Part shown: positions 3-43,879 of the stretch, one piece after another
How the letters are laid out: the number at the start of each line of letters is the position of its first letter
Numbering within the stretch: position 1 is the stretch's first letter
Virus record (IMG/VR): IMGVR_UViG_3300026183_000005
Location: 1-57,166 of that record
From: a virus
Direction: 5' to 3' (one strand)
DNA length: 57,166 bases
Made by a program: the position numbers and the translations under genes
Notes under the pieces: model-generated
What the model saw: only the letters and a program-made list of their open reading frames with translations
What the model was told of the DNA's origin: nothing
Databases searched by the model: none

Positions 3-3000
3 ACTGCTGATGAGATAAATAGACTTATTGATGCAGGTGTATTGGGAGCTTTGGGTGGCGCGCAATTCAGTGCCTTGGGTTCAATACAGAGGGGTAAAAA
101 GACTGAAGGTGCAGACCTTGACACAGGTGATGAAATTTCAGGAGGACCTGAAGAAACCACACAAGACATAGATGAGCGACTCTCCACACTTAAGGACAGA
201 CTTGCGGTGGAAACATCTGACTTCGCAGTTGGAGATGAGGTGGAGCAGTTCTTGGGCGTAAAGGGCAAGATTAGTGCTATTCGTGGGGACGGACAGGTCG
301 AGATATTACCGGAAGGCTCGGATGAGCCAATAACTATTAGCCAAGATACACTATCCCCTGTGCTTCGCCCAATCGAAGATTTAAATCGTCGACTGGATGA
401 AGTAAAAGAAAGGGCTGACCAAGGCGATAAGTCTGCACAGATGGAGGAGCAGAAAGCACTTGAGGAAATAGATAAGCAAACAGAAGTAGAACAACCGCCC
501 GAAGAACAAAATAACAAACCTGCCACATTTACATTTGCAGAAGATGGATATGAGGTTGGTGGTATTACGCAGAAAGAAAAAGCTGATATAGAGGAGGTCT
601 ACAAGGAGCTTAAAAAGCAAGCCGAGGCGGGCAGTTTCCGTAAATCCAACTCCAACCATGAGGTTATTCTCAAAGCAGGAGGTATGTCAGGTGCCACCTA
701 TAAAAAATTTAAGAACAAGAAGATTAGACAATACCTATATCAAGCAGGTGTTACTAATGAGAATGGTGTTTGGCAGGGTGAGACAAAGCAGGATATAGAA
801 ATCGAAGATTCTCGCAGACAGAAGATACTTGATGACCGCGCGGACATTATAAAGAACAGATTGAAGGGAGCCACCATTGGTGACACGGTTGCCATAGGGG
901 ATGATGAGGCGATAATCTACGGATTTACAGCTGATAATAAAGTTCTGTTTGAGGAGAATGGGGTTGGCGTTGAGCCAAAGAAACTCAGGGTACCAAGAGC
1001 AAAAAAGAAAGTTCAAACTGTACCAAAAAATAACACCCCGAAAGCACCGACAGAAGAAGACCTTCGACAAGCAAGGGACGAAGTAATCACAGAAAGAAAG
1101 TATGAAGAGCCGGAGAGAGAAGAATTAAATTTAAATGAATCTCAGAAAGCTGGTGCTAATTTATACAGAAAGATTCAATCGGTTAATGAAACTGCAGATG
1201 CTCCTGAATTAGGTTTTGATTTTATCGATGCAGAAAAGCTTGAAAAACTAAATATCGAGAAAGAGCTAGAAGTCTTAAGAAATGTGGCAATTAGTAATCT
1301 TCACCAGGGGATTGACACTGAATTGGCACCATTCTTGGAGGGTCTAGGATTTGATGTCATAGAAGAAAATGGTGAACTAAGGGTCAACAGAAACAAATCT
1401 GATAATACGCCAGTAATTAACCCTGTGACTCCGCCACGTGCAGAGAAGTTAATAAAAGCACTTAGTTGGGCAGAAAAACTTCAACCATCATTAGATGATA
1501 TTAATGAAAGCATGGGCGCTGCTGCAGATTTTGAAGCAGAGACTGAAAGACTTATTCAGGAGCGTGCGTCCAAAATCGCAAATGACAGAGCAAAGGAGCA
1601 ACAATTACAACAGCAAGAAAAGCTAGACGAAGAAAAGTCGAATGAAGAGTTACTAGATGAAATAAGTAACACAGAGGAAGCTCCTAAAAAAATAAACTTA
1701 CCAAAGGGAGAAATGCCTCCCCGATTTGTTGGAGAGTTTGATATTACTGAAGGCATGCAAGATGCCCTAGAAAATGATGGTTCATTAGTCGGGGGAAACT
1801 GGGAAGGTTTGTCTGACAGAGAGAAGAGCTCAACAAAAACAACGGGCAAAGGAAAGAAAAAGGCGGAAGTAAAAACACCTGGGAATCGTGTCCTTGTCGT
1901 TGTTGAGAAAGTCAACAATGACCACGACGACGTGCAGTCAGGTCAAGTCCGAGTACTGACGGCAAAAAAAGCCAAGATGGATGGAAGGGATGTCCTGAAG
2001 GTTTACGATAGCTTGCGAGTCGGAGCGAAAGGCAAAAGTCCTGGGTGGAGACCACTTTATGGTAAGGGGAAATCAGGCAAGATTGACGCCACCCCGCTAG
2101 AGGGTTACCGATTACTTGGAAAAATAACTACTCAGCGAGATGCGGTGGATTACGAAGCTAGCAAGCTCGATGCTTTATTTGATGATATAAAAGAACTGGA
2201 GAGCCATCCTGCCTTTCAGACTAGCATGCAGTTATCATCTAGTAAGAAATGGTACGGGCTCTTCAAGGACTCAGAAAAGGCACAAGCGTATCTTGAAGGA
2301 GAGGGTAAAGAAAAATTAGACAAATACCTTAAGGAGGTTGAGCCACTCCTTGGGTCTGATTATTTAACTGAAGATGGTAGAGCAATAGACCCATCTTTAC
2401 AAAACGCCCCTATGTTTGTTTCCAACAAGGAAAGGCTGGACTATTTAGTTTCACAGGCAGGGGGTAACACGGATGCCATAGATGCATATACCCAAGCATT
2501 TATTGCGTTTGCGAATAATGATATGGAGGATGTTGTTCGCTCGTTTGAAACAAAAGAAAAAGTTTATGACAAGGAGTTCACCTTTGATGACAAAAAGCAC
2601 AGCATATATGATATTCTGCAACGTGCGGCAGGTGCCCAAGGATACGAACCACTTGAGTGGGGACCCGGAACACCACACACCACTCCGTTTGATTTACCAA
2701 TTGTAAAGGCTGCATTAAAAGCAGCTCAAAGTATTGAGGTTCCCACATTTCAATCGGGAGGAGAATTTGTAGATTTAGGCAGACAAGATGCACAGGGTGA
2801 ACTTGAGAAGCAAGCAGACGAGGACACAACTGAATCCATGGGACTGCAGGAAACTGAGAGAGATGTGGGTTCAGCAAAAGACTACCTCAGCTCTTCATCA
2901 GAACAGGAATTAACTGGAGGCACAGTTCAGTTCCACAAGTTGTTCGCAAACCCGAGAGACTTAACTCTTACTTTAGCACAGATTCCTGACTATCTAAGAG

Positions 3001-6000
3001 ATGATATTCGTTCGTTTGCTGAGATAGATTTAAATAATATTGAAGACGCAGCACAGCGACTATTCATAAGTCAGGATACTCCTAATGCAGTAAAGACGGC
3101 ATACGAGAATCAGCTTACGACAATACTGAAGGATTTATATCGAGAGCTAGCTAGCCAAGAGTTGATATCTCGATACTACACAAGACCTCAAACAACAATT
3201 GCTGATAAAGCCGAGGAGACCGAATCAGAACTGGCGGGCGAAAAGCCTAAGGCTAAAACAAAAGCAATATTCGAAGACACCCTACTTACTCCTCGATTAA
3301 ATAACAAAAACTACAACATCAGGGATAACTTTCTTAATAATTTAGAAAAGATTCGTGATACACTTACTGCAAAAACTCGGCCAATAAAAAAGAACCCTGT
3401 GCCTGAGGTTCGCAAGAAGATTAGAAACAGACTAGAAGTAGATAATGTTAACCGGTCTAGAGATAGTGACTTAGGTGCAGTTAATTATTTACACAGGGAA
3501 TTTGGGTTAGACCTTCGTGACGCATTGTATTCTGCAGACTTTACAGAGGAAGATGTAGATAGCATCATTGAGAAGATAGAGTACTCCGAGATACTACAGG
3601 AGCCACTCAATAAGGGCAGGAAGTACCCTGTAAATGAAGAGGTTTTAAAAGATAAATCTAATGGAGCGAGGGTTAAGAATGACGGCACTCCATTTGAGGG
3701 TGGGTTCATGGCGACATCAGACGCAAAGGCGTTAGTCGGATTTATAGATGATACACTCCGAGAGATTGGTGAGAAAGTAATATCGGAGGACGATTTAGCT
3801 AAGTGGGATATTGCTAGCAATTTCTTAAAAGAAGCATGGATACCTGAGTCTTATGTGGTCGAGCTTGAGGACACTAATGTAATTGAAAAAGAGGTAGAGT
3901 TTGATGAAACCACGAAGGAGACACAAAGGCAGAAGCTTATTGATGAGATAAACAGGGAGACGAAGATTATAAAGAGGCTCCGCACGGGTGTGGAAAATCT
4001 CAGAAAAACTGGCAAAAGAAGTAAGTACCAAAAAGAATCTTTCTCAGACACTCCACGGAAGGTGTATCTAGCGAAAGGAAGCAGAAGAGAAGAGACAGGA
4101 GATACCCGCCCGTCAAAACGTGCTACTGAGATAGAGATTGACCAAAAGAAAATACAAGAGCTTCAAACAAAGATAGAGAAACTTGCTGACAGGCTAAATA
4201 GTATTAAGTCAGTCAAGGCAAAGCCTGAAGTAAAGATGCAGGACACCGTGGTAGAGGACGGGATGTTACTATCTGAATTTGCTCAGACATTATCTGAGTT
4301 CGTAGGGTTTCATGATGGTATGAGTTTCCTAGACGACCCATACTATAATGCACTTGCTGACCAGGTATCTATTGCAGTCAGAACGCAGGAGAGCGTAACC
4401 ACACTAGACCAAAGGATTCGACATGTTGGCATGATGAGTCCTGCCACAGGACAGGTTGAGGAATCTGCACCATTAGTATTTGATGAAAAATCAGCACAGG
4501 ATGCCGACCGAATAGCAAGAGAGCGAAGAAGTATTGCTGTTAGAAAGTCAGGAAATCCTCTCACTGAAATGGGGATGGATGAACAACTTGCTGACAATCA
4601 GTTGGCAATTAGTAACTTTCTTGATGGTGGACAGATAGATGTACCATTCTCAGCTATTGTAGGATTTGAAAGAATACTGGAAATTATTGAGTCAGGAACA
4701 AGCTTCCGTGAGGAGAAAGCGATTGGATACATAGTTCGAAAACTCAAAGCAAACAAGGCACTAAAGAATACAAAGATACGATTTGTGCCATGGGAGAAGT
4801 ATAGTCGTGTGGCATCCACCAATGAGTATGGCTACTCAGCTGCTCAGTATATGTTTGGTCGTGATGAGATATGGGTGTCTGATGTATTCGGGGATGGTTC
4901 CGGAACATCAATGGAGAACCTTGTGACCTCTATTGTTCATGAGGCAATCCATGTGCCAACCAAGATATTCCTTGATGTTGGTTATGCCTTTAGTACGAAC
5001 AACACGCAGGCGATTTCCGAACTGAAAGATAAATCTTTCGGCGAAGAGTATGGCAAGATGTATAGTCATATTCAGGATGTATTGCTTCCTATGCTCCGCA
5101 AGAGTGGTGGGGCGGACATGATATATGGATTATCATCACCTGATGAATTTCTTTCCGAGGTAGGTAGTGACTACCGATTACGCTCATTTCTTCGTGAGTA
5201 TAAACTGACAAACGAAGAAAGAAAAGCACTTGGCATACGACCAAAGTCCAAGATTCGTACAGCATGGGATTGGGTTGTTAATTTATTGGCAAAACTCCTA
5301 GGGGTGAGTGAGCGTGCAAGCCAAGAACCTGAGATGCTTGCTTATGCAGAGAAGACGCTCAACCAAGTTATCTCTAGGGCTGACAGATTAGGCGCTATGG
5401 GTAATGCCATTAATGCAGTAAATGTGCGTGGCATATCTACATTGGATATATTTGCAGGACCTAACAGGCAGATTGAGCCTGGGCAAAAAGTACGAGAGAA
5501 CTTATTAGAGTTTAAATGGCTAGATGGCACTAGACGTAAGCATATTTACGACAGGGATGCCAAGCTAGTAACCAAAGCCACCGCTCGGATTATTAACTCG
5601 AATCCACTTGTAAAAGAAGCTTTTGATAGAGGGTTAATAAAAGAGGGCGACGAGGTGAAGTTGCCAATGAAGGATTCTATTAATGGGTTTGTAGTTCCCG
5701 AAGACGCATATTTAGGCGACATCCTTGAGCATCCCGAATTATTCAAGGCTTACCCACAGCTTAAAAGAGTTAGGATAAGAAAGTCTCCTGGTAGTAGTCC
5801 TTATGTAGGAGCATGGAATGGAACCTGGGACCCAAGTATTCCTGGTTGGAGGAGTGAGCCGACGATAGAGTTGGCAGAAAATGCCTCAAATGTACGCGGG
5901 ACTTTAATACATGAGATACAGCATGCGGTAGATGAGATTGAAGGATTTCCTCGCGGTTCAAACAGTGAAATTGCTGAAGGAATCATGATGGCCCTGTTTA

Positions 6001-9000
6001 TATTTACAGGTGGTGGTGAAACATTTACGATTAGTGATTTAACAGACAAGATTATTCCTGCAGTCGCAAAGACAAGAGATATAGTCCTTGCGAGACAGTA
6101 TAGCGATGAACTGCGTGATACATACGACAAGCATCAGTACTTCTATCTACATAGTGTTTTAAGCACATTGCATGATGCCTTATCTAGTATCGACCTTGAC
6201 CCAATCTCGATGGATAGTCTCACGCCTCAAGAGTTCCTTGCGGAAGCAAGTATAACCACTGAGTCGGACCACACTTATTGGTTAAAAGATATTTTATATT
6301 TTTGGAACTTTGGAGAAATCACTTCGAGGACTCAAGAGAGGTTGTTGCAAGATGACATCGAGGCAACAGGCGACCAATTTGGAGAGGTTGTGCTTGGTGC
6401 AAAGGATGATGCTAAGCTAGATGATGCCAAGTTGAGCAAGCTGCAGGACCAAATGGATGACAAATTTAAGCCCGGTGCGGCATGGTCAATGCCTCCAGGA
6501 TGGTGGCTCTCACGGGAGATGCCTAATTTAGTCAATAAGCAAGACGAAGTCTTTGATGTGCTAACTGCAATCAAGCAAGCTTCGGATACCTATACAGGTG
6601 CGTTCTCAGCCTCATCAAACCCGTCCCCAGCAAACAAGGAATCTATTCCTCGCCCTGACGATAGTGCTAGAGTATACCATGAGGCCACCGCAGGAGGCAT
6701 AAATGAATTAGTAACAGCACTCACTCAAGCATTCAAGGCAAGCGTAGATAAACTACCTGGCGCAGATATTAATAGCTTTATAGATAAGTATGGCAAAATG
6801 GCACTTGGGTTCGGTACTCATAGTGTAAGCTCAGCAATGAAGGCAGTTGGTAAAAACCTTCAGCCTTTTGAAATAGATGTAAAAACGGTAAAGATTACAG
6901 ATGCCGGTCGTAACCGAGTGGCAAAGCTTTATGGTATTCGTAACGCAATTGCATACATTGAGAGAACAAGGGAGCATGCAAGAAATACTATAGCCGACCT
7001 AGTAACAAGTCTCGAGGCAAACCAAATAGAGGTAGCTAGTCACAAGAAACTACTTAAGGCACTAGAAACAAGACAACTAGAATCCATTGAGGGTCTGTCT
7101 AGTGCGATACGCGATAAGATTGTAGGGCAAGCGGACTCAGCTTCTAGCCAATCATCCAAGGCATTTGAGCGTTTAGAAAAGTACTTACAGTACCTGCCTA
7201 ACTCAGAATTAACACAGGCAGACCTCAAGGAAATGCAGGGCGTCACAAATAAAGAGATTGGTGATGCTATGGTAGCGATAATTAATCAGCCTGGCGTTTT
7301 GGAGGAGTCATCACTAGATGAAATAAATGGGTTTGTGGAGACAGCAATTGTGCCCGGTCTTGCTGGGTTCCAAGGCAACGACAAGCAGACAGCACTTCGC
7401 AGGACTGCTCTTGTTTATGCGATTAAGAATAGCGGTGACATTATGTCATTGCTTCGTCTTGCTAGAAACAAATTGGGCGTTGAGCAAAAAGAATTTCTTG
7501 AAGCAGGATACAGTATACTGAAAGCCAAATCCAAAAAGGAAGTAGAGGCGGTAGCTAATAAATTTCAGGACAGACTTAAAACAAAGATTAAGCATATCAA
7601 GCATGCCAAGATGCGCGTGATTGAGCTAGAGGAGTCAGTCAAGGGTATCGAGAACGAGGTAAATATAAATAAAATTATAGACGAAACACTTAAGGCTCGG
7701 TCAGATAAGTATAGGTTCACATTAGGGGAACTTGAAGATTTTGATATTCGTGACGGAAGTAAGATTCGCGTCATGAGAAAGAATGCTAAGGGAGAGTACG
7801 ATAGGAAATCATTCCAAGTGTTCGAAGTGAAGTTTCAAAACGGCGACCTCGTGAACAGAAAAGAGTTCATTAAGGCAAACAGAGAGACCCTTGAGTGGGT
7901 CAGGAATCATGGCTCAGATTATAGGAATGAACCATGGTTCGACATTATGCGCGAGCAAGCAGAGATTGCTCTCACCCTTCCAGTAACGCAACAATGGACT
8001 GCTGCTCGTAGAAGTGCATGGATGGCAGGCTTGGAAAGTTTGAATCAAAGATTCTCTCGCTTGGGTTACGAAGGAAAAAGATTGGCTCAGATGACAAGTA
8101 GAACAGTTGCTCTTTACAGAGACCTGATTTCTAAGTCCATGAGATACTCTAAAGAATTTAATCGTGCCTACCAAAACGCAACAAAGGCAGTTGGTGAAAC
8201 AGGAACATCGTTCTACACGGGACTATATCAAGATATTTTTTGGTGGTTTGATAATCATCCTGAGTATGCAGAAAACGAGACCGAAGCGTTTACTGCAATG
8301 TGGAAAGATATGCGCAAGAGTGGAAGGGTTAAAGATAAGACAAAGCTTAATGATGAGTCACGCAGGGCTGTCAAAACTCTTGTTGAGAAAACAATACAAT
8401 CAAGAGATTGGGAGGCTAAGGTAAATCGTGACCTTGGCAATCGTATCCGTGATGACAAGGTAAAGGTGCAGTCATATTTAGACGGAGAGAAAAGCGTGGA
8501 CTTTTATCGTATGCCACTAGACATGGGTTATGCGACCCTGCCTAGAGCAATCAATGACTCCAAGGTAAACTCTTTGGTTGAGTACATGGAAGGTAAAGGC
8601 TGGGCAGAAAACATCAATAACATGGCAGGGTTTGAAATGATTACCATGCTCCACAGAAACGGAGAGATTGATGAGATGGTCGGAGAGATAGAAGACTACT
8701 TTGACGAACAGGTTGTTCAACGCTTTGTCAATCCACACATGGACTCAATGAATAGAAAGAGTCTATTCTTCGGTCCTCAAGACAAAGACGGATGGGGACA
8801 AGAGCTATCGAATACATATGTGGGCGAGAAGTGGAGAAGTTCGGACGGCAATGTGATTAAGTTTATGGATGCCATCTATGCCGACTATGCATCCATGTCA
8901 TCTGATTTAAATAACCCACAAGCAAGAGCTGATTGGTATCTAAGTATGTTTAAGCAACTGCATAAAAGATATCGAGAACTTGCTAATGTGTCTAATGATA

Positions 9001-11390
9001 TCAAAAGTAGGGCAGAGACAGAAACGAGAGAGACAGAAGCACTCAAACATGTGCCACGCTCACTTGATGCAAGGCAGGTAGAAAGCAGACTACCAAAGGA
9101 GTTTTTTCTATACGATATGTATGATGAGGTGAGCACGCCAATCCGTATGGCAATGTTCTCGGCAGCCTCGGTGTTTGGGAGAGATGGCAGTAAAGCTACA
9201 GAAGCATTTAGTGGTGGTCGTGGAGAGCTCAAGAAGTCATATGATTTATTTAGAACTGTAATCGCAGAAGCTACCGGAGAAGCACCCGATAAGCCAAACG
9301 CTCGCTACTCAAAAGCAGTTAGAAAAGAAGCACATCGAGTCCTGAAGGATATGGGATATGATAAACCAAGAGAAAAGTTCGATAAGATTTACAATGACTC
9401 TGTTGCTTATGGAGAGATGCTCACAACCTTTAGGCATTTAAAAGCATACTATGGTGCAAATAATGATGCCGGTCCATTTAAGGATGCCAGGTTCCTGCTC
9501 GAATTGCTAGGGACGCAATCCTTAACTGTACTTAATAACCCGAAGTCATCCTTTTGGCAGGGCATGTCCTTGTTTGAGTTTCCTTTAGCGTTCAGGGGTG
9601 CTAATAAGATGGCAGCCAAAGGAACTGCAAAAGCACTCGCAAACTTTGCAAATCAAACATTTGGCGGAGTTGCGGAAGCATTAGGTATGCAGTTGGATAG
9701 AGTTGGCAGATATGCATCAAGCCTGAATAACACGCACTTCAGGATGGAAGAGATGGAGCTTTCGTTGAGAGATTACCTTACTCAGGTAGGCAGGGGTGGC
9801 GACTTGATGGACCCATCAAACATGAAGCGTTACCTAAGAATCATCAAAGGTATCTCCACTCACCACAAGAAGCGTGGTACTCGTGCTCCCGTGGACTTAA
9901 TGACTGCCGTTACTGGAATTTTCCCATATGTAAATAATGTGGTCAACCACTCCGTGGGCGTGGGTGCTGCATATGCATATCAGGATTTGGTGTTAAAAGT
10001 AGCTAGGCACATAAAGAACAATGGTCTGCGTGACTTTCAAGAAATTAGTGCTGATGACTTGGGTATGGGGCAAAGTAGTTTTGAGTGGATAGTTGGGGAG
10101 AAAGACGGGTATGTAAATGCTAACAACATGTTAGTTGACGCAGGCGCACCTACAGTATCCCGAATGGCATTTGATTACCTAGACAGATTGCGTAGCGACC
10201 CTAATGCACCTGTGATGTCTCACGAGCAGATACTCATGGTCAATCAAGTTGCTATGAATAATATGTCAGGGGAAGGATTTAATTCTAAGCCGGCATGGTT
10301 ATACACTAATCCGATGATGAAGTATTTTGCATTCTTCCTAGGGTGGCCCCTTGGTAAGATGGCACGGGATAATAAGTTTATCTTCCGTGGAGATACTGAC
10401 TCAGTAAATAGCTATGCAGCTTTCCTAAAGTACCTTGGATTAATGTCAGCGATTTATTTACCTGTCGGACTATCTTTCGCATTCTTGATTGATTGGTATG
10501 ACGAAGAGGTGCTAGGTAAGCCAAACTCTTTACCACCACTTACACCATGGGCTATGCTTCCTGTTGTTGGTCCTGGAATTGCGATGTCAGATGAGCAGTC
10601 ATCATTCTTTGGACTAACCTCACGCATGGCAAAAGCGGGCACTCCTTACGGCATGGGTTTTGATTTAATGAACTCCATGATGGCAAAGGGTGACACTTAT
10701 GGAGGCGTGCAGGAGTTTAGTTTGGACAGTAGGATTTTCGCGTTTTCTATTATAAAAAACATATACGACTCTATGGGAAACTGGATGCACCAAGGAGAGT
10801 TCGATTGGGGCAATGTAGGGCGACCTTTAACTTATGCGTTTGGCGGTAACTCTGCTCTGCAGGCATTTGACGCAACTAATAACTTGTTTGATTTAGATAA
10901 CTTTGAGTCACGGGTTGCTGATTACATAGGAGTTAGGGCGAGCGTAAAGAAGACTGCATTTCTGATGGGGATGAATCTTAGAGGACCAAGTCAAGGGTTT
11001 GGTAGACCTAGTAAGTTGTCAGTAAATGTGAAGCAAATGGAAAGGGCAGCTTATGCAGGAGATGAGGAAGACTTTAACAAGCAGTATGAGGAGGCACTAG
11101 AAGCCGCCCGTGAGTACCTTGAGGATAATCCGCAGATGCGAGGGACTCCTGAAAACATAGTTTTAAAAAGATTTAAAGATAGAGGACTACGCTCAGGTAT
11201 AACCCGTCATAAAATCCCGGATGCCGAATGGGAGGCCTTGCTAGAATTAATGCCTTCAGACCAGCGCGCAAAAGTAAAAAGGTATGAAGGAAATCATCAA
11301 TACTTCATACAGGAGATGGGGTTGAAGGAGCCTGAGGCAGGTCCTACCAGTATGGATGAGTTAAGAAGGAAGGCTTTGCTAGGTTTCTAA
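3..11390 (+). CDS. Giant phage polyvalent / internal virion protein, 5' end missing
   Basis: The reading frame is open from base 3, so the first start-like codon (TTG at 42) is not the true start; at least 3,795 residues are present. Numbering from base 42, two zincin motifs are visible: HEAIH at about 1633-1637 and HEIQH at about 1957-1961. The second is followed by an EIEGFPRG stretch that I recall from phage large polyvalent proteins. A PDEFLSE and a LTPQEFLAE segment follow the respective motifs, as in that group. The N-terminal third is charged, with SH3/tudor-like VGDEV and IGDTV segments; about 2310-2400 is helical coiled coil. Hydrophobic stretches lie near 3425-3440 and 3463-3484. 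With no tape measure in the window, I infer a virion protein injected into the host, with peptidase activity on host or virion proteins. Motif calls are direct; the role is inference. Confidence 0.75.
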   Translation, partial: TADEINRLIDAGVLGALGGAQFSALGSIQRGKKTEGADLDTGDEISGGPEETTQDIDERLSTLKDRLAVETSDFAVGDEVEQFLGVKGKISAIRGDGQVEILPEGSDEPITISQDTLSPVLRPIEDLNRRLDEVKERADQGDKSAQMEEQKALEEIDKQTEVEQPPEEQNNKPATFTFAEDGYEVGGITQKEKADIEEVYKELKKQAEAGSFRKSNSNHEVILKAGGMSGATYKKFKNKKIRQYLYQAGVTNENGVWQGETKQDIEIEDSRRQKILDDRADIIKNRLKGATIGDTVAIGDDEAIIYGFTADNKVLFEENGVGVEPKKLRVPRAKKKVQTVPKNNTPKAPTEEDLRQARDEVITERKYEEPEREELNLNESQKAGANLYRKIQSVNETADAPELGFDFIDAEKLEKLNIEKELEVLRNVAISNLHQGIDTELAPFLEGLGFDVIEENGELRVNRNKSDNTPVINPVTPPRAEKLIKALSWAEKLQPSLDDINESMGAAADFEAETERLIQERASKIANDRAKEQQLQQQEKLDEEKSNEELLDEISNTEEAPKKINLPKGEMPPRFVGEFDITEGMQDALENDGSLVGGNWEGLSDREKSSTKTTGKGKKKAEVKTPGNRVLVVVEKVNNDHDDVQSGQVRVLTAKKAKMDGRDVLKVYDSLRVGAKGKSPGWRPLYGKGKSGKIDATPLEGYRLLGKITTQRDAVDYEASKLDALFDDIKELESHPAFQTSMQLSSSKKWYGLFKDSEKAQAYLEGEGKEKLDKYLKEVEPLLGSDYLTEDGRAIDPSLQNAPMFVSNKERLDYLVSQAGGNTDAIDAYTQAFIAFANNDMEDVVRSFETKEKVYDKEFTFDDKKHSIYDILQRAAGAQGYEPLEWGPGTPHTTPFDLPIVKAALKAAQSIEVPTFQSGGEFVDLGRQDAQGELEKQADEDTTESMGLQETERDVGSAKDYLSSSSEQELTGGTVQFHKLFANPRDLTLTLAQIPDYLRDDIRSFAEIDLNNIEDAAQRLFISQDTPNAVKTAYENQLTTILKDLYRELASQELISRYYTRPQTTIADKAEETESELAGEKPKAKTKAIFEDTLLTPRLNNKNYNIRDNFLNNLEKIRDTLTAKTRPIKKNPVPEVRKKIRNRLEVDNVNRSRDSDLGAVNYLHREFGLDLRDALYSADFTEEDVDSIIEKIEYSEILQEPLNKGRKYPVNEEVLKDKSNGARVKNDGTPFEGGFMATSDAKALVGFIDDTLREIGEKVISEDDLAKWDIASNFLKEAWIPESYVVELEDTNVIEKEVEFDETTKETQRQKLIDEINRETKIIKRLRTGVENLRKTGKRSKYQKESFSDTPRKVYLAKGSRREETGDTRPSKRATEIEIDQKKIQELQTKIEKLADRLNSIKSVKAKPEVKMQDTVVEDGMLLSEFAQTLSEFVGFHDGMSFLDDPYYNALADQVSIAVRTQESVTTLDQRIRHVGMMSPATGQVEESAPLVFDEKSAQDADRIARERRSIAVRKSGNPLTEMGMDEQLADNQLAISNFLDGGQIDVPFSAIVGFERILEIIESGTSFREEKAIGYIVRKLKANKALKNTKIRFVPWEKYSRVASTNEYGYSAAQYMFGRDEIWVSDVFGDGSGTSMENLVTSIVHEAIHVPTKIFLDVGYAFSTNNTQAISELKDKSFGEEYGKMYSHIQDVLLPMLRKSGGADMIYGLSSPDEFLSEVGSDYRLRSFLREYKLTNEERKALGIRPKSKIRTAWDWVVNLLAKLLGVSERASQEPEMLAYAEKTLNQVISRADRLGAMGNAINAVNVRGISTLDIFAGPNRQIEPGQKVRENLLEFKWLDGTRRKHIYDRDAKLVTKATARIINSNPLVKEAFDRGLIKEGDEVKLPMKDSINGFVVPEDAYLGDILEHPELFKAYPQLKRVRIRKSPGSSPYVGAWNGTWDPSIPGWRSEPTIELAENASNVRGTLIHEIQHAVDEIEGFPRGSNSEIAEGIMMALFIFTGGGETFTISDLTDKIIPAVAKTRDIVLARQYSDELRDTYDKHQYFYLHSVLSTLHDALSSIDLDPISMDSLTPQEFLAEASITTESDHTYWLKDILYFWNFGEITSRTQERLLQDDIEATGDQFGEVVLGAKDDAKLDDAKLSKLQDQMDDKFKPGAAWSMPPGWWLSREMPNLVNKQDEVFDVLTAIKQASDTYTGAFSASSNPSPANKESIPRPDDSARVYHEATAGGINELVTALTQAFKASVDKLPGADINSFIDKYGKMALGFGTHSVSSAMKAVGKNLQPFEIDVKTVKITDAGRNRVAKLYGIRNAIAYIERTREHARNTIADLVTSLEANQIEVASHKKLLKALETRQLESIEGLSSAIRDKIVGQADSASSQSSKAFERLEKYLQYLPNSELTQADLKEMQGVTNKEIGDAMVAIINQPGVLEESSLDEINGFVETAIVPGLAGFQGNDKQTALRRTALVYAIKNSGDIMSLLRLARNKLGVEQKEFLEAGYSILKAKSKKEVEAVANKFQDRLKTKIKHIKHAKMRVIELEESVKGIENEVNINKIIDETLKARSDKYRFTLGELEDFDIRDGSKIRVMRKNAKGEYDRKSFQVFEVKFQNGDLVNRKEFIKANRETLEWVRNHGSDYRNEPWFDIMREQAEIALTLPVTQQWTAARRSAWMAGLESLNQRFSRLGYEGKRLAQMTSRTVALYRDLISKSMRYSKEFNRAYQNATKAVGETGTSFYTGLYQDIFWWFDNHPEYAENETEAFTAMWKDMRKSGRVKDKTKLNDESRRAVKTLVEKTIQSRDWEAKVNRDLGNRIRDDKVKVQSYLDGEKSVDFYRMPLDMGYATLPRAINDSKVNSLVEYMEGKGWAENINNMAGFEMITMLHRNGEIDEMVGEIEDYFDEQVVQRFVNPHMDSMNRKSLFFGPQDKDGWGQELSNTYVGEKWRSSDGNVIKFMDAIYADYASMSSDLNNPQARADWYLSMFKQLHKRYRELANVSNDIKSRAETETRETEALKHVPRSLDARQVESRLPKEFFLYDMYDEVSTPIRMAMFSAASVFGRDGSKATEAFSGGRGELKKSYDLFRTVIAEATGEAPDKPNARYSKAVRKEAHRVLKDMGYDKPREKFDKIYNDSVAYGEMLTTFRHLKAYYGANNDAGPFKDARFLLELLGTQSLTVLNNPKSSFWQGMSLFEFPLAFRGANKMAAKGTAKALANFANQTFGGVAEALGMQLDRVGRYASSLNNTHFRMEEMELSLRDYLTQVGRGGDLMDPSNMKRYLRIIKGISTHHKKRGTRAPVDLMTAVTGIFPYVNNVVNHSVGVGAAYAYQDLVLKVARHIKNNGLRDFQEISADDLGMGQSSFEWIVGEKDGYVNANNMLVDAGAPTVSRMAFDYLDRLRSDPNAPVMSHEQILMVNQVAMNNMSGEGFNSKPAWLYTNPMMKYFAFFLGWPLGKMARDNKFIFRGDTDSVNSYAAFLKYLGLMSAIYLPVGLSFAFLIDWYDEEVLGKPNSLPPLTPWAMLPVVGPGIAMSDEQSSFFGLTSRMAKAGTPYGMGFDLMNSMMAKGDTYGGVQEFSLDSRIFAFSIIKNIYDSMGNWMHQGEFDWGNVGRPLTYAFGGNSALQAFDATNNLFDLDNFESRVADYIGVRASVKKTAFLMGMNLRGPSQGFGRPSKLSVNVKQMERAAYAGDEEDFNKQYEEALEAAREYLEDNPQMRGTPENIVLKRFKDRGLRSGITRHKIPDAEWEALLELMPSDQRAKVKRYEGNHQYFIQEMGLKEPEAGPTSMDELRRKALLGF

Positions 11391-14115: not shown

Positions 14116-14269
14116 GCGTTCGGTCATCCAAGAAGAAAAAGCCCTAAAAAAAATGGTGGCTGAAGGATATGATGATTTTTGGAAACGACGTGGCGTTCCA
14201 TCTCCTCCTGCATCCTATAACTACCAACACCCCCGAAAGAAGTCAAAGCCTGGAGCCCGTATCATATAG
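14096..14269 (+). CDS. Small basic protein, 57 aa
   Basis: Starts at ATG 14096, which has a GAAGAGG ribosome-binding site just upstream, so I prefer it to a longer in-frame start at 14069. The chain is basic with a FWKRRGVPSPPASYNY middle and a KKSKPGARII end. Its 3' end overlaps the opposing recombinase gene by 27 bases. No family recognised. Confidence 0.45.
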   Translation: MKKTRTKRSVIQEEKALKKMVAEGYDDFWKRRGVPSPPASYNYQHPRKKSKPGARII

Positions 14270-15304
14270 TTGTGTGGTGCTTTCATTGGCGTGCCCCACC
14301 ATTACTGCAATATCGCTAAGCTCCTTACCTTCGCGTGCGCATCTAGTAACAAATGAACGCCTGAAAGAATGGAAGCGCTTACCTTCTTCATATGCTTTCG
14401 GATGCTTTCGTTCTAATTCTCTACCGAAGTATACAGCAAGCGTGGCTCGCGAGGATACATTGTCATAGATTTTTTTCCATATAGGAAAGCAATACTTCTT
14501 ATCCTCCGGCTCAATCCTAGCGATAGTATCATGAAGAATCCCTCCGCCTATTAGCTCGTCATCTATTGGAAGTGATACTCTAGCATCTGTTTTCTGTGTA
14601 TGCACAGTCAGATACTTATCATTAAACATATCCCATTCTAAGCTTGCGATATCACCTATGCGTAACCCTGTCCACCAGGCAAAGTCAGCGGCAATGCTCC
14701 AGAAGTATGAGCAGTGCTTACGGATTCTTTCGTAGTCTGACTTAGTGAAAGCTATGGATTTCTTTTTCTCCTTCTGCTTGTGGGACAACAATGATTTATC
14801 CACAGACACCCCATAGGAAGGGTCCTTGAGGATGTAAGCATTGGCAATTGCATAGGTCAGTAAACCTTTGACTGCTGTTAGTTTTTTGCACTTATGATTA
14901 TACGAAGTCTTATCACTTACATTTACAAACTCATAGATATGCTTGGTTGTAATGCTGGATATCTTTGAATTTTGTAGCTTTGAGAATTTAAGGAATGAAT
15001 TAATAACAGTCCCTTCAGTATAGATTGTATGCTTCGAGTGGGACTTCATCTTCCTAAACTCCTCATATTCACCAACCACCTCCTGAATCTTTATATTCTT
15101 CCCTGCAACAATGGCAGTAATTGTGTCACGGGTAAGTGCTTTTATCCTGGCAGCAGCTTCTATCTCTGCCAACTTAGCCTCCTTAGCTAACATCTTGGCT
15201 TCATCTTTGTTCCTTGTTCCAAGTGAACGCTTAATGATTTTACCATTTGCTGTCTTAATCACGGCAGAATAAATGCCGGTTTTCTTATTCTTTTCGTATC
15301 TCAT
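14243..15304 (-). CDS. Tyrosine recombinase (integrase 1)
   Basis: A 353-residue protein. An arm-type DNA-binding beta region (residues 1-30), a SAM-like core-binding domain (about 70-160) and a catalytic domain follow each other. The catalytic set is complete: R215 (TGLRIGD), K238 (TQKTD), H312-x-x-R315 (HSFRRSF), H338 (VGHAN) and Y347 (LYDT). It would cut and rejoin DNA at an att or resolution site. It is the last gene of the minus-strand early block and ends against the plus-strand block. A second, unrelated-looking recombinase lies at 42893; the two may divide integration and dimer resolution, which is inference. Confidence 0.9.
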   Translation of the reverse strand: MRYEKNKKTGIYSAVIKTANGKIIKRSLGTRNKDEAKMLAKEAKLAEIEAAARIKALTRDTITAIVAGKNIKIQEVVGEYEEFRKMKSHSKHTIYTEGTVINSFLKFSKLQNSKISSITTKHIYEFVNVSDKTSYNHKCKKLTAVKGLLTYAIANAYILKDPSYGVSVDKSLLSHKQKEKKKSIAFTKSDYERIRKHCSYFWSIAADFAWWTGLRIGDIASLEWDMFNDKYLTVHTQKTDARVSLPIDDELIGGGILHDTIARIEPEDKKYCFPIWKKIYDNVSSRATLAVYFGRELERKHPKAYEEGKRFHSFRRSFVTRCAREGKELSDIAVMVGHANESTTQLYDTGSRL

Positions 15305-23818: not shown

Positions 23819-24039
23819 CTTGGATTTGATGGTAATTCAGCGGTGCCATTTATATCTTTATTGATGCTCCTAACCAATGCCAGGTCATATGCGTTCAAGG
23901 CATTGAACCAAGAAGCATTGGCATCATTGATATGGATGGTATTTTGTATATCAGGTTTACCGTCGGCTTGCAGTGGACCAATGTATCCGTCCGTCTGTAT
24001 ATACGAGCCAACGCTCGGTAGTATTATTTGGTCTGTCAT
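23815..24039 (-). CDS. Unknown protein, 74 aa
   Basis: Not recognised. It has no clear secondary motif apart from WFNALNAYDLALVRSINKD, which is helical. It overlaps both neighbours by four bases, so it is translated after the DpdA-like gene. Confidence 0.45.
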   Translation of the reverse strand: MTDQIILPSVGSYIQTDGYIGPLQADGKPDIQNTIHINDANASWFNALNAYDLALVRSINKDINGTAELPSNPR

Positions 24040-24929
24040 AATAAATTTGTTTGAACATTATTGTGAATGATTGATTGCCCGAACTTGCGGGCTGACTTAA
24101 TCCTTTTGCGAGATGTACGCTCCTTGCCTGCCATGCGGTCGGCAAAGTCATAAGCAAACGAGTCAGCAGAATGGATTCGGTCTTTGATGTTAGCTTGTGC
24201 TAGACCTGTCTTCTTGAACCCAAACAGATGCACCTTATGGTACTCGTAATTAATGCAACTGCCTAGCCTGTCTAGTATCTGCGATACAACCTCAGGATTA
24301 GTGTTGCGTTTACATGTAGAGCCAATGCCTATCCAATGACCTGTATTGAGTAGCTCTCCTGTATGCCCATGGTAATACGGTCTGTCCATGAACGGGCAGT
24401 GCCACTCCTTACCATTCCAATACCTTCTATTAGATAGCTCATTGCAGTACTTAATGTAGTGGTCGTAATAATCCTCGACCTCCCATCCTTGCAGAACAGG
24501 CATGACCGGAACTTTGAGTCCTTGTTTCACAGCCTCATCCATGATGTCGATGTACCTTTTAACTGTATTGTTCTGGTGTATTCTAACAGATGCTTTTCTG
24601 CCTTGTGACTGCAGTTCAGTAATAACGCTTGGCTCACACATATAATCCTGTGTGGCTATGCAAGCTAAGTCTCCTGCATCCTGAAAGCGTACGGCTAAGC
24701 GTACATACTCGGCAGGAGATTGTATGAAATCTCCATACTTTGTAACCTGCGTGAATGCTCCACTATCTAACATCCATCGCCCAACACTAGGGGGAGATTT
24801 TCTCCCCCGTAGTGCATAAGCGGATAACATGGCACCTGATTGGCAGTCTGAACCATCAGGCATTATTTCAGTCCTAGATAGTTTGTGTGCCTCCGAGAAT
24901 CGGTCGGTGCCTGTGAAGTATTCCTTCAT
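24036..24929 (-). CDS. DpdA-like 7-deazaguanine DNA transglycosylase
   Basis: 297 residues with the hallmarks of tRNA-guanine transglycosylase paralogues that act on DNA: LDSGAF (54-59, D55 a likely catalytic residue), QDYMCEP (94-100), VMPVLQGW (142-149), IGIGSTCKR (200-208), HLFGFK (234-239) and SADSFAYDF (254-262). Family members swap guanine in phage DNA for preQ0 or a derivative. I find no FolE, QueD, QueE or QueC gene here, so the base would have to come from the host. Its likely role is protection of phage DNA from restriction. It is coupled to neighbours by ATGA overlaps. Confidence 0.8.
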   Translation of the reverse strand: MKEYFTGTDRFSEAHKLSRTEIMPDGSDCQSGAMLSAYALRGRKSPPSVGRWMLDSGAFTQVTKYGDFIQSPAEYVRLAVRFQDAGDLACIATQDYMCEPSVITELQSQGRKASVRIHQNNTVKRYIDIMDEAVKQGLKVPVMPVLQGWEVEDYYDHYIKYCNELSNRRYWNGKEWHCPFMDRPYYHGHTGELLNTGHWIGIGSTCKRNTNPEVVSQILDRLGSCINYEYHKVHLFGFKKTGLAQANIKDRIHSADSFAYDFADRMAGKERTSRKRIKSARKFGQSIIHNNVQTNLL

Positions 24930-31116: not shown

Positions 31117-31515
31117 TTATTTTGAAACAATATCAGCGAGTGGTGTGTAGCTGTATAGTCCGGCATCCTGCTTGGCACGGGCGTATGATGCGGCGTGTTC
31201 GTCAGGTGTGTACCCACCGAGGATGCACGCAGTGTCAGCAGTTGGTGTGTAATCTCGGTCGACTTTTGGCACACTACATCCAATTGTACCGGGCTTCTCG
31301 AACTTGAGTGGTACCGCTGGGGCATATGTAGACCCCATTAACCTATTATACATATACCCCAATACATCCTCAGGAGTACGCAGGTTGTCATGTGGCTTGG
31401 TATTGTCGATACCCGATAGATGTACGAAGCGTGGTTCTGTGCCGTACTTTACATGAGAAGGACCGGCATGTGGATGCATACCCACAAGTGGACGGATGTC
31501 TGATATTGTCTTCAT
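31117..31515 (-). CDS. Unknown protein, 132 aa
   Basis: Start chosen at ATG 31515 (MKTISDIRP) because it overlaps the preceding stop by ATGA. It is rich in His, Pro and Tyr, with DDIR-like turns, EDVLGYMYNRLMGS and a final DEHAASYARAKQDAGL. Possibly a virion or regulatory protein. Not recognised. Confidence 0.5.
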   Translation of the reverse strand: MKTISDIRPLVGMHPHAGPSHVKYGTEPRFVHLSGIDNTKPHDNLRTPEDVLGYMYNRLMGSTYAPAVPLKFEKPGTIGCSVPKVDRDYTPTADTACILGGYTPDEHAASYARAKQDAGLYSYTPLADIVSK

Positions 31516-31823
31516 GATATTGCGTTGTTGATGGCTAGCCACAAGTCGGCACGCCATTCGATTTTGTCTGATGTTAGTATGTAAATATTATCATTCGATG
31601 AGTCAGCCTCGAGCAGGTCGAATAAGTTGAAGTCCTGGATGGCAAGCGCATCCTCGGCAATGGTCAGGTCGAACACCAATGGTATGTCAAATGGTGCAAG
31701 CTCTAATCCTTTTGGTTTTTTAGGAAACCGACGACGAGTGTTACTCCTGTACGCACGGCTACCCTTGGTAGTCATCGCAATGCGACCACCCATTGGCTTG
31801 GCATATACTTTGCCATTTCTCAT
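31512..31823 (-). CDS. Unknown protein, 103 aa
   Basis: Basic first 40 residues (SRAYRSNTRRRFPKKPKG) and an acidic rest (LTIAEDALAIQDFNLFDLLEADSS). It is the first gene downstream of the hammerhead cleavage site, so its mRNA would begin with a 5' hydroxyl about 36 nt before the ATG. An AAGGA ribosome-binding site is present. Function unknown. Confidence 0.5.
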   Translation of the reverse strand: MRNGKVYAKPMGGRIAMTTKGSRAYRSNTRRRFPKKPKGLELAPFDIPLVFDLTIAEDALAIQDFNLFDLLEADSSNDNIYILTSDKIEWRADLWLAINNAIS

Positions 31824-31853
31824 GATAAATCCTTGGTTAAGGGTTGAAGTTAT

Positions 31854-31935
31854 GTAGTAGACAAATACTGATGCACCCTGCCCGTATTGACAGGGTGCGC
31901 ATAGGTTTCGGCTATTAAAGCCTCATCAGTACTAC
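31854..31935 (-). ncRNA. Hammerhead ribozyme (type I topology)
   Basis: The minus strand carries the full hammerhead core: CTGATGA, a 4-bp stem II (GGCT/AGCC with loop TTAAT), then GAAA. Stem III starts AC/GT, has a 2x2 loop, ATGC/GTAT, a 4-nt bulge and a perfect 8-bp GCACCCTG/CAGGGTGC hairpin with a 10-nt loop. The cleavage triplet GTC lies at 31862-31860. Stem I is GTAGTA/TACTAC, 6 bp, open at the ends. Cleavage is expected between 31860 and 31859. Stem I includes the stop codon of the gene before, so cutting would separate the two mRNAs in the gap. Confidence 0.8.
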
Positions 31936-32507
31936 TTTGAAGAGAGTTTACTCTTCATGTGTGCAACTATTTCACCCGGTGTTGCTGCCGATGCTTTCTT
32001 CATCTTGCGACCAAGTGTGCCGGACAACCTGAATGATGTTGTACCATTCTTGTTGTGCTTCAGCGTATTCTTAGAGAATGTCGCTGTGTTTGACTCACGA
32101 TGCTCACGAATCAAATCGAATGTTGCATCGATTGCCTCATCGTTGCAGAAGTTGTCGAGATAATCCTGCTTGGCTAACTTCTTAGCCTCGCCGTAAGACA
32201 TTGCATTTATGCCTAGGAAATCAGTTGTACCATGAAATCCTGTCTCATCATGGGAAATCTGACTTAGAACATATTCATTGTCAGGCAAACGATAGCCACT
32301 TGGTACGCTGTATGACTTGTCTTCACGAATAGCATTGAGCTTGTCGAGAATCATTTTAGTAGTCATTACCTCAGTGGTCTCCTCGTCGAGTATGGCTTTA
32401 GCATTGGCACCATCTATAGCCTGTTCACTCAGTCTAAGTATTCTCTCAGCCTCAGCACGGTCAGATTCTAGTAATGCATCGAAGTGTGTTAATGTTGTAT
32501 TATTCAC
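31932..32507 (-). CDS. Unknown protein, 191 aa, first gene of the minus-strand early block
   Basis: Helical N-terminal half (ALLESDRAEAERILRLSEQAI) and basic C terminus (SFRLSGTLGRKMKKASAATPGE). It ends in KLSSK; its TAG stop is part of stem I of the hammerhead ribozyme. It lies next to the 0.9-kb structured non-coding region and has an AAAGGA ribosome-binding site. Not recognised. Confidence 0.55.
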   Translation of the reverse strand: MNNTTLTHFDALLESDRAEAERILRLSEQAIDGANAKAILDEETTEVMTTKMILDKLNAIREDKSYSVPSGYRLPDNEYVLSQISHDETGFHGTTDFLGINAMSYGEAKKLAKQDYLDNFCNDEAIDATFDLIREHRESNTATFSKNTLKHNKNGTTSFRLSGTLGRKMKKASAATPGEIVAHMKSKLSSK

Positions 32508-33411
32508 TTTGTATCCTTTGGTTAGTTGATTGTTAATACTACACTTTGTAGTAGACCAAATCCCTTCTCATCAGTGGCTTAGAATGTGGCATGAGTTGCC
32601 TCGCTCCCTGAATCTTTTACGCTCCCTGTGTTTATGCGATATTATCGGATTGTCAGTGGAAGTTATACACGACTTGGCTCCACCCTACACTGACCACTCC
32701 CGAAGGAGGTTTTGTGCTTTGCCTTGGCAAGTTGCTTTCCGTACTAGGTAAAAGTGAACTTGTTTTATCCTCGACCTTTTAGGTTGCTCTTGACTCAATC
32801 TTAGGGATTACTGCCCCTAGGTTAGATTGACCCCGTCTTAGCATGATTGCCCCGTTAAGACAATCCCTCGCACGCTGACCCTTTAAAGACTATTTTTACC
32901 AATGTTAACCATTGGATAGCCTACCATACCCGAGCACTCGCCCTCCTCTGACTACTGACCCAACCAAGGGTGTTCGCCTCCGAGCGAGATACCGTTACCT
33001 GTCGCAGGCAGAGCGGATAAGTTAGATTATAGACCCATGACTTTTCAGGCGGCTTGGCAGTTTCACTCCTTAGCTTGCAATCGAATGCACGTCTCGAATA
33101 GTGACTCATGGCGGGTAAGGTTTCCCTCGCTTGGTGAGCGAGTTTCACCCTTGGGGTAGTCAATCCCCAATCCGTACCCCGTACGGACAATGTGTAATAT
33201 GTATGAATGTTAAGCATTGTACCCATATAAACCCCACGAAATCAGGGGTTTAGGGGATTTCTGTTACTACCTGTGCAGTTAGTAACACACCCCCCCCTTG
33301 GGGGGGACGGCAAATTTGGCTGTGCGTTGATATATACCCTCTTTCTCGGGTTTCCATGGATTTGGAAATTGCCAAAAATAAAAAAATTGGGATTTTGGGC
33401 TTTGGTACTAC
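32508..33411. ncRNA. About 0.9 kb non-coding, densely structured region
   Basis: No convincing gene. At least a dozen hairpins are seen: TACTACA/TGTAGTA (32537-32553), GTCAGTG/CACTGAC (32652-32694), TTGCC/GGCAA (32719-32730), TCAATCT/AGATTGA with inner TAGGG/CCCTA (32795-32830), GTCTTA/TAAGAC (32835-32861), CCAATG/CATTGG (32899-32915), CTCGCT/AGCGAG (33126-33142), TTGGGG/CCCCAA (33151-33170), CCGTAC/GTACGG (33172-33186), ACAATG/CATTGT (33187-33220), AAACCCC/GGGGTTT (33229-33251) and a C8/G7 hairpin (33290-33306). It lies between divergent transcripts, next to a tRNA gene. Position and size recall the large phage RNAs GOLLD and ROOL; I cannot match their consensus from memory. Strand is undetermined, and an origin is an alternative. 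Confidence 0.5.
33263..33286. promoter_or_regulatory. GTTACTA/TAGTAAC palindrome with 10-bp spacer
   Basis: Perfect 7-bp arms around a 10-bp spacer that itself holds the palindrome CTGTGCAG. It is a variant of the 22-bp element and lies in the divergent gap before the tRNA gene. Confidence 0.45.
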
Positions 33412-42892: not shown

Positions 42893-43879
42893 ATGAGAAT
42901 ATACAGAGATAAAAATATGGTTTCCAAGGGTCGACCTAAATGTTGGTGCGTGGAAATAAATTATAAGGGAAAACGGAAGCGGAAATACTTTGAGAGCTAT
43001 TCGGCGTCAAGAGGTTTTGATGTTAACGAATGGATACTTTCGTTTAAGGAAAAAGCTGATGGGCATGATACTCTAGTAAAGTATGGCATAGAACTTTACC
43101 TAAAGGATTACGAAGACCGCTATCCGGACGCACAGATACGAACAATTAGCCACCGACTATCTTGGTTGTTAAAGTGGGGTCTTGGGGATGTAAAAATAGA
43201 TGATATAGATGAGTCATTTCTTGCAAGAAAGGTTTCTCAGCAATCATCTTGGACCACGCAAAGCAGTAAATTCACATACAAAAATGCTTTTGTGATATTC
43301 TTAAATTGGTGTGGCGCTGTGGGCTACTGTGAAAAGAGAGAGTGGAAAATTAAAACAATTCGCGTTAAACCAAAAGATAGAGAGATTGGAATCCTGACAG
43401 TAGACCAAGCAAAGCTTTTGCTGAAAAATATTTTACCGCAACACCAGGCGGCACTAGCAATTACTTTGTTCGCAGGGTTGCGACCTCAAGGAGAAATGGA
43501 AAAGTTAAAATATGAGCATATTAAGCACGGCGAATGGATTGATGTCCCTAGCTCCAAGACCCCACAGAGGCTCATAACGGGTCTTCCGGAAAATATATGG
43601 ACATGGATTCCAAGGAACAAAAAGGGGCATGTTATGCCCTCGTGGAAAGGACTCAGCCAAAACAGGAAGCGCATTTCCCATAAGCTTGGTTTTAATTATG
43701 GTCAGGATTCAGCAAGGCACAGCTTTGGTTCTTATGGATATTGGGAGTTTGGGTTGGAATGGACAATGCATTCCATGGGGCACATGGATTATTCGACTTT
43801 CAAGAAATATTACAAGAACCCAAGAATTTCTAAAGAGGACGCAAAAAAATATTTTTCACTCGTGAATGTTAGACATTAA
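42893..43879 (+). CDS. Tyrosine recombinase (integrase 2)
   Basis: 328 residues. R197 (AGLRPQG), K222 (SSKTPQR), R275 (SARHSF), H297 (GHMDY) and tyrosine at 306/307 (KKYYKN) form the tyrosine recombinase active site. The residue at the first histidine of the H-x-x-R box is D272, an unusual change. The N-terminal 50 residues have an arm-binding beta sheet (WCVEINYKGKRKRKYF). It lies beside the TTTGTCAGC repeats and the regulatory switch, so it is the more likely integrase of the two. Confidence 0.85.
   Translation: MRIYRDKNMVSKGRPKCWCVEINYKGKRKRKYFESYSASRGFDVNEWILSFKEKADGHDTLVKYGIELYLKDYEDRYPDAQIRTISHRLSWLLKWGLGDVKIDDIDESFLARKVSQQSSWTTQSSKFTYKNAFVIFLNWCGAVGYCEKREWKIKTIRVKPKDREIGILTVDQAKLLLKNILPQHQAALAITLFAGLRPQGEMEKLKYEHIKHGEWIDVPSSKTPQRLITGLPENIWTWIPRNKKGHVMPSWKGLSQNRKRISHKLGFNYGQDSARHSFGSYGYWEFGLEWTMHSMGHMDYSTFKKYYKNPRISKEDAKKYFSLVNVRH

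Follow-up and report, generated by a model that had tools for sequence, protein, structure and literature searches.

The window analysed here, a stretch of 57,166 nucleotides (positions 1 to 57,166 of the IMG/VR virus record IMGVR_UViG_3300026183_000005), carries on its minus strand two genes that flank a compact RNA motif. The features of this locus are given in the direction of transcription:

31932..32507, minus strand: upstream gene, 191 aa, no known relatives
31854..31935, minus strand: whole motif of the almost certain type I hammerhead ribozyme, from the sequence and from a match to covariance model R1 with identical ends (49.4 bits, E 1.5e-11)
31930..31935, minus strand: stem I 5' strand GUAGUA, holding the UAG stop codon (31934-31932) of the upstream gene
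31923..31929, minus strand: catalytic core CUGAUGA (C3-A9), from the sequence
31910..31922, minus strand: stem II GGCU/AGCC with loop UUAAU
31906..31909, minus strand: core GAA and A15.1 (GAAA), from the sequence
31861..31906, minus strand: stem III with two interruptions, from a constrained fold
31864..31873, minus strand: anti-core segment CAUCAGUAUU, with 10 bp possible to AGUACUGAUG (31933-31924), closing an alternative fold
31860, minus strand: H17 (C), with predicted cleavage at 31860/31859 from the core rule NUH^ and the sequence
31854..31859, minus strand: stem I 3' strand UACUAC, predicted new 5'-OH end of the downstream message
31830..31834, minus strand: AAGGA, Shine-Dalgarno-like, which would stay on the downstream fragment
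31512..31823, minus strand: downstream gene, 103 aa, no known relatives, with its ATG 36 nt past the cut

Read from 31935 to 31854, the minus strand runs GUAGUA CUGAUGA GGCU UUAAU AGCC GAAA CC...UUUGUC UACUAC, which is the order of a type I hammerhead, with stem I open and loops closing stems II and III. The fixed core is complete (C3 U4 G5 A6 N7 G8 A9, G12 A13 A14 A15.1, and U16.1 with C as H17). The core elements that form the first criterion of PMC3088659 are present as CUGAUGA, GAAA, U31861 and C31860, and the core-adjacent pairs of its second criterion as G-C (10.1-11.1), U-A (1.1-2.1) and A-U (A15.1-U16.1). Stem I pairs at 6/6 positions and stem II at 4/4; loop II (UUAAU) is similar to the loops of relatives, and no base-paired contact was found for it. 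In the constrained fold, stem III leaves the core with an A-U and a C-G pair, passes through a 2x2 pyrimidine internal loop (CU/UU) to AUGC/GUAU, and continues distally through a 4-nt bulge (AUCA) into a 10-bp GC-rich hairpin with the loop AAUACG, so modelled with 16 pairs in total and just 2 bp unbroken beside the core. The initial annotation had placed a hammerhead at 31854-31935 on the minus strand, cut at 31860/31859, with all catalytic-core elements and with the upstream stop codon inside stem I; the sequence bears out each of these points, and the model ends agree with the coordinates. Its statement that three stems pair holds in full for stems I and II, whereas stem III is interrupted, and neither this interruption nor a competing fold that hides the core had been described.

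A simple descriptor of the motif (stem I of at least 5 bp, stem II of at least 3 bp, A15.1 and U16.1) was matched in 4/300 dinucleotide shuffles of the whole window, and a stricter one, with the minimum lengths of stems I and II raised to 6 and 4 bp, in 1/300. We also built the covariance model R1 from 46 other viral hammerheads of the group described below, leaving the window sequence out. This model gave a single match in the window, at 31935-31854, with a score of 49.4 bits that is inflated, because the seeding pattern came partly from the window site and because its fixed letters help, and with an E-value of 1.5e-11 that is approximate, the calibration having been short. Stemless pattern matches score 16-24 bits with R1 and most group members about 29-68 bits, and by this score the window copy clearly groups with the real members. 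Thus, since core, stems and family model all agree, the minus-strand RNA 31935-31854 is almost certainly a hammerhead ribozyme that cuts itself. Only one distinct sequence of the exact window ribozyme was found, and the searches returned no diverged homologue of the locus.

Flanking genes and genome setting

Searches of PHROGs and Pfam gave no relative of either flanking protein, an IMG/VR search with either of them returned the same virus only, and the upstream protein has no relative in named phages. A 78-kb IMG/VR contig represents this same virus, its DNA being identical over the compared stretches, and contains one hammerhead only, the one found in the window. A DNA ligase-like protein and a DnaB-like helicase are encoded on the ribozyme's strand. 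Because these replication-type genes share the strand, the description of the two flanking genes as early is plausible, although both genes are themselves without known relatives.

The leftward operon's first gene is separated from a tRNA-Thr by about 900 nt without a convincing gene (32508-33411, minus strand), which by eye have the look of a structured RNA and which have a fold z-score of only -1.7. Rfam searches of this stretch up to E 10 gave the tRNA locus and weak matches below cut-off only, and blastn and nhmmer found no relatives among loci sharing a 17-mer. On the minus strand at 32575-32546, immediately upstream of this gene, ACTGATGAG...ATTTGGTCTACTACA matches both ends of the hammerhead but lacks its middle, and may be a deleted hammerhead copy or a chance likeness. 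As a second, deleted ribozyme, CTGATGAG...GTCTACTAC at 32574-32547 is unproven: it was equalled in 4/500 local shuffles, but other places in the window give comparable alignment scores. The window further encodes a DpdA-like protein (24036-24929, minus strand; PF23859, E 3e-23), which suggests 7-deazaguanine DNA modification in the phage, a very long ORF of 3782 codons (42-11390, plus strand), and two integrase-family proteins (14243-15304, minus strand, and 42893-43879, plus strand).

A viral group sharing the motif

We searched IMG/VR with the strict pattern TACTGATGAGN{6,20}CGAAACN{12,42}GTCTA and obtained matches in at least 120 stretches, a number at odds with the earlier view that such ribozymes are uncommon in phages. 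In bacterial and archaeal genomes amounting to 257 Gb, the same pattern matched 15 stretches, about six of which look real by model score. Nearly all extracted viral matches have a stem I of 5-8 bp, and in most of them stem III is paired and varies in sequence. In 87 of the 111 distinct non-window matches listed, all four stem I pairs that the pattern leaves unfixed are formed, compared with 8 when the partners were shuffled; this test used matches unselected for pairing, while the 100% pairing of a separate covariation set, which had been pre-selected for it, holds by construction. At the level of the group, the structure is supported by related sequences. Thus, because the stem I pairs form, stem III varies in sequence and bacterial matches are rare, the pattern marks what is, on comparative grounds, a real and largely viral hammerhead group, and hammerheads of this kind are, as judged from these matches, common in viral metagenomes.

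Many of these viruses carry the motif repeatedly: among the viral records listed with a match, 29/79 have two or more. Record IMGVR_UViG_3300030382_001968 (loci L146, 8352-14667, and L068, 2292-8607) packs 14 hammerheads into 6.3 kb, one at almost every gene boundary, with 13 ribozymes counted in the L068 locus and 14 in the contig. Most ribozymes of L068 lie a few nt past a gene stop, with an AAGGAGG-type site and an ATG 14-21 nt downstream, and several of those in L068 and L146 have CUGACGA for the core and UA in place of UC at the cut. At the start of a 16.7-kb viral contig (L147, 1-4500), 6 hammerheads and 3 pistol ribozymes lie on one strand within about 4.5 kb. A search for cultured hosts of the group gave one short match, to Pelagibacter phage HTVC115P, and none for two other loci; HTVC115P contains no hammerhead of the group kind (best score 13.7 bits, E 0.3).

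Predicted competing fold and alternative readings

The lowest-energy fold of the window copy (-34.0 kcal/mol, z -4.6) is not a hammerhead. The hammerhead fold has -30.3 kcal/mol, 3.7 kcal/mol above the minimum, and the ensemble gap is 4.4-4.9 kcal/mol from 37 to 15 C. In the minimum-energy fold the core strand UACUGAUG is paired with CAUCAGUA of stem III, forming a 10-bp helix that masks CUGAUG. The anti-core strand emerges ahead of the 3' strand of stem I, this competing fold is already the best before that last strand has been transcribed, and the predicted barrier to refolding is about 9 kcal/mol. Over the group, the energy gap has a median of 0 and a largest value of 4.6, and among the 110 distinct members compared the window has the longest anti-core helix (10 bp, followed by 8 and 7), a length with a probability of 0.005 in shuffles of the insert. 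The scan found no other clear hammerhead with CATCAG 3' of the core, and the anti-core pairing was on these grounds rejected as a conserved switch. Without tertiary contacts, the hammerhead would make up a small fraction of the modelled ensemble. Nearest-neighbour energies of multibranch folds may err by a few kcal/mol and take no account of the tertiary contacts by which hammerheads are stabilised, and because of this we describe cleavage of the window copy as possibly slow, and not as inactive. The window copy offers a naturally occurring case of a competing fold that may slow down cleavage.

These observations bear on how the motif should be read. A conditional or slow hammerhead, in which the stem III insert CAUCAGUAUU, complementary to the core AGUACUGAUG, would let a nascent three-way fold hide the core, is in our assessment unlikely. 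The cut would then await refolding, or a ribosome that terminates at the UAG of stem I and melts the helix, and the uncut message would meanwhile express the upstream gene. Consistent with this are the exceptional length of the anti-core helix within the group and its rarity in insert shuffles, its place in the minimum-energy structure of every transcript long enough to include CAUCAGUA, and the position of the stop codon beside and within it. However, the confinement of anti-core CATCAG to this one clear hammerhead argues that a switch is not conserved, the energy difference lies within the error of the model and the neglected tertiary contacts, the barrier amounts to about 9 kcal/mol only, and one such helix among 110 members is not very surprising. 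The narrower proposal of a self-gated ribozyme, in which the anti-core strand comes first and the cut is coupled to termination of upstream translation at the UAG, is quite unlikely; if it were true, the splitting of the message would hinge on translation.

The interrupted stem III and the non-hammerhead minimum would also be expected of a decayed, inactive hammerhead whose leftover stem III hairpin protects the 3' end of the message or marks an RNase site, but decay should have cost the motif some of its core residues or of the three core-adjacent pairs, all of which are intact, and stems I and II are perfect, which makes this reading very unlikely. That the site is an intrinsic terminator or another hairpin, with its likeness to a hammerhead arising by chance, is extremely improbable: a strong 10-bp hairpin does lie in the intergenic gap, with a fold z-score of -4.6, but it has no U-tract, and a chance of 1 to 4 in 300 per window for the descriptors, together with the family-model E-value of 1.5e-11, speaks against coincidence. 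An intrinsic terminator in the sense of a GC stem and a U run was rejected, since the hairpin is followed by AUCAGUAUUUG and is absent from the list of the terminator scan.

Proposed message splitting and relation to known hammerheads

Across the group, the ribozymes hold a regular position relative to genes. In 55/103 of the matches listed, a long upstream frame has its stop codon between -20 and -1 from C3, compared with 139/2220 (6%) of random positions, and this stop is commonest directly before stem I or within it. Start codons with a Shine-Dalgarno sequence were assignable for 67 of the matches and lie most commonly 20-40 nt past the cut. Ribozyme and genes share a strand in 97 cases and are opposed in 4. 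This layout fits intercistronic processing and appears hard to square with a role tied to one specific neighbouring gene. The group-wide geometry and the arrays in which one gene boundary after another has a ribozyme thus support message splitting, and the window ribozyme is probably a cis-acting type I hammerhead that serves as intercistronic punctuation in a leftward phage operon. The initial annotation had proposed that cleavage splits off the mRNA of the first gene; the layout of the group and its boundary arrays lend this support, and for the window phage itself it is carried over from them.

Hammerheads cleave 3' of H17 and leave 2',3'-cyclic phosphate and 5'-OH ends. By analogy with hammerheads in general, we infer that the emerging window transcript would fold and cut itself after C17 (31860), with the same end chemistry. 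The upstream one-gene message would then retain the ribozyme body, closing with the GC-rich hairpin of stem III and bearing a 2',3'-cyclic phosphate at its terminus. The downstream polycistronic message would have a 5'-hydroxyl end and a 36-nt leader, which opens with UACUAC and includes its own Shine-Dalgarno sequence. The two messages would thereby be decoupled, and both new ends would likely resist the usual exonuclease and 5'-end-dependent decay routes, so that we infer an effect on RNA stability, including longer-lived ends, and on expression.

A message-splitting role has been proposed for phage hammerheads (Perreault et al., 2011; PMC3088659), tandem bacterial hammerheads cleave in vitro in three arrangements and, for the Agrobacterium one, in E. 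coli (PMC3088659), and what hammerheads do in prokaryotes and in their phages was described in 2017 as an open question (PMC6155905). The regular layout of the group, with the stop codon in or beside stem I followed by the cut, the ribosome-binding site and the start codon, makes the idea directly testable, and the best test bed would be a phage in which most of the gene boundaries within an operon carry a ribozyme.

At gathering cut-offs, Rfam finds neither a hammerhead nor a pistol ribozyme in the window. The catalytic core is identical to that of Hammerhead_1 (RF00163) and Hammerhead_3 (RF00008), with scores below their cut-offs: in permissive mode RF00008 gives 17.8 bits on the window (cut-off 48.5), and RF00163 gives 27.4 bits on a well-formed relative (cut-off 34). 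RAGATH-1 (RF03152) aligns over its whole model length with 16.3 bits, below its gathering cut-off of 56.3, which other group members do not reach either. It shares uaCUGAUGAG...CGAAAC...GUCua with the window; in contrast to that family, the window copy has an ordinary helix of 4 bp as its stem II and no clear counterpart to the model's upstream hairpin. No Rfam hammerhead family reached its cut-off at 20 loci with group members. The pistol ribozyme (RF02679), which adjoins hammerheads on the same strand in the relative L147, is likewise self-cleaving but differs in fold. The closest parallel is with the type I hammerheads of phages and prophages (PMC3088659), with which the window copy has in common the core, the three-stem layout and the site at a gene boundary, and its group the occurrence in clusters. 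It differs from them in the two breaks of stem III, the 2x2 internal loop and the bulge of 4 nt, in its anti-core segment with a competing fold, and in the single copy found in the phage. Altogether, a large viral hammerhead group, the window copy included, is missed by the Rfam models at their cut-offs, and on sequence comparison this group appears to be under-annotated by Rfam and not new in kind, with the window copy as a new member.
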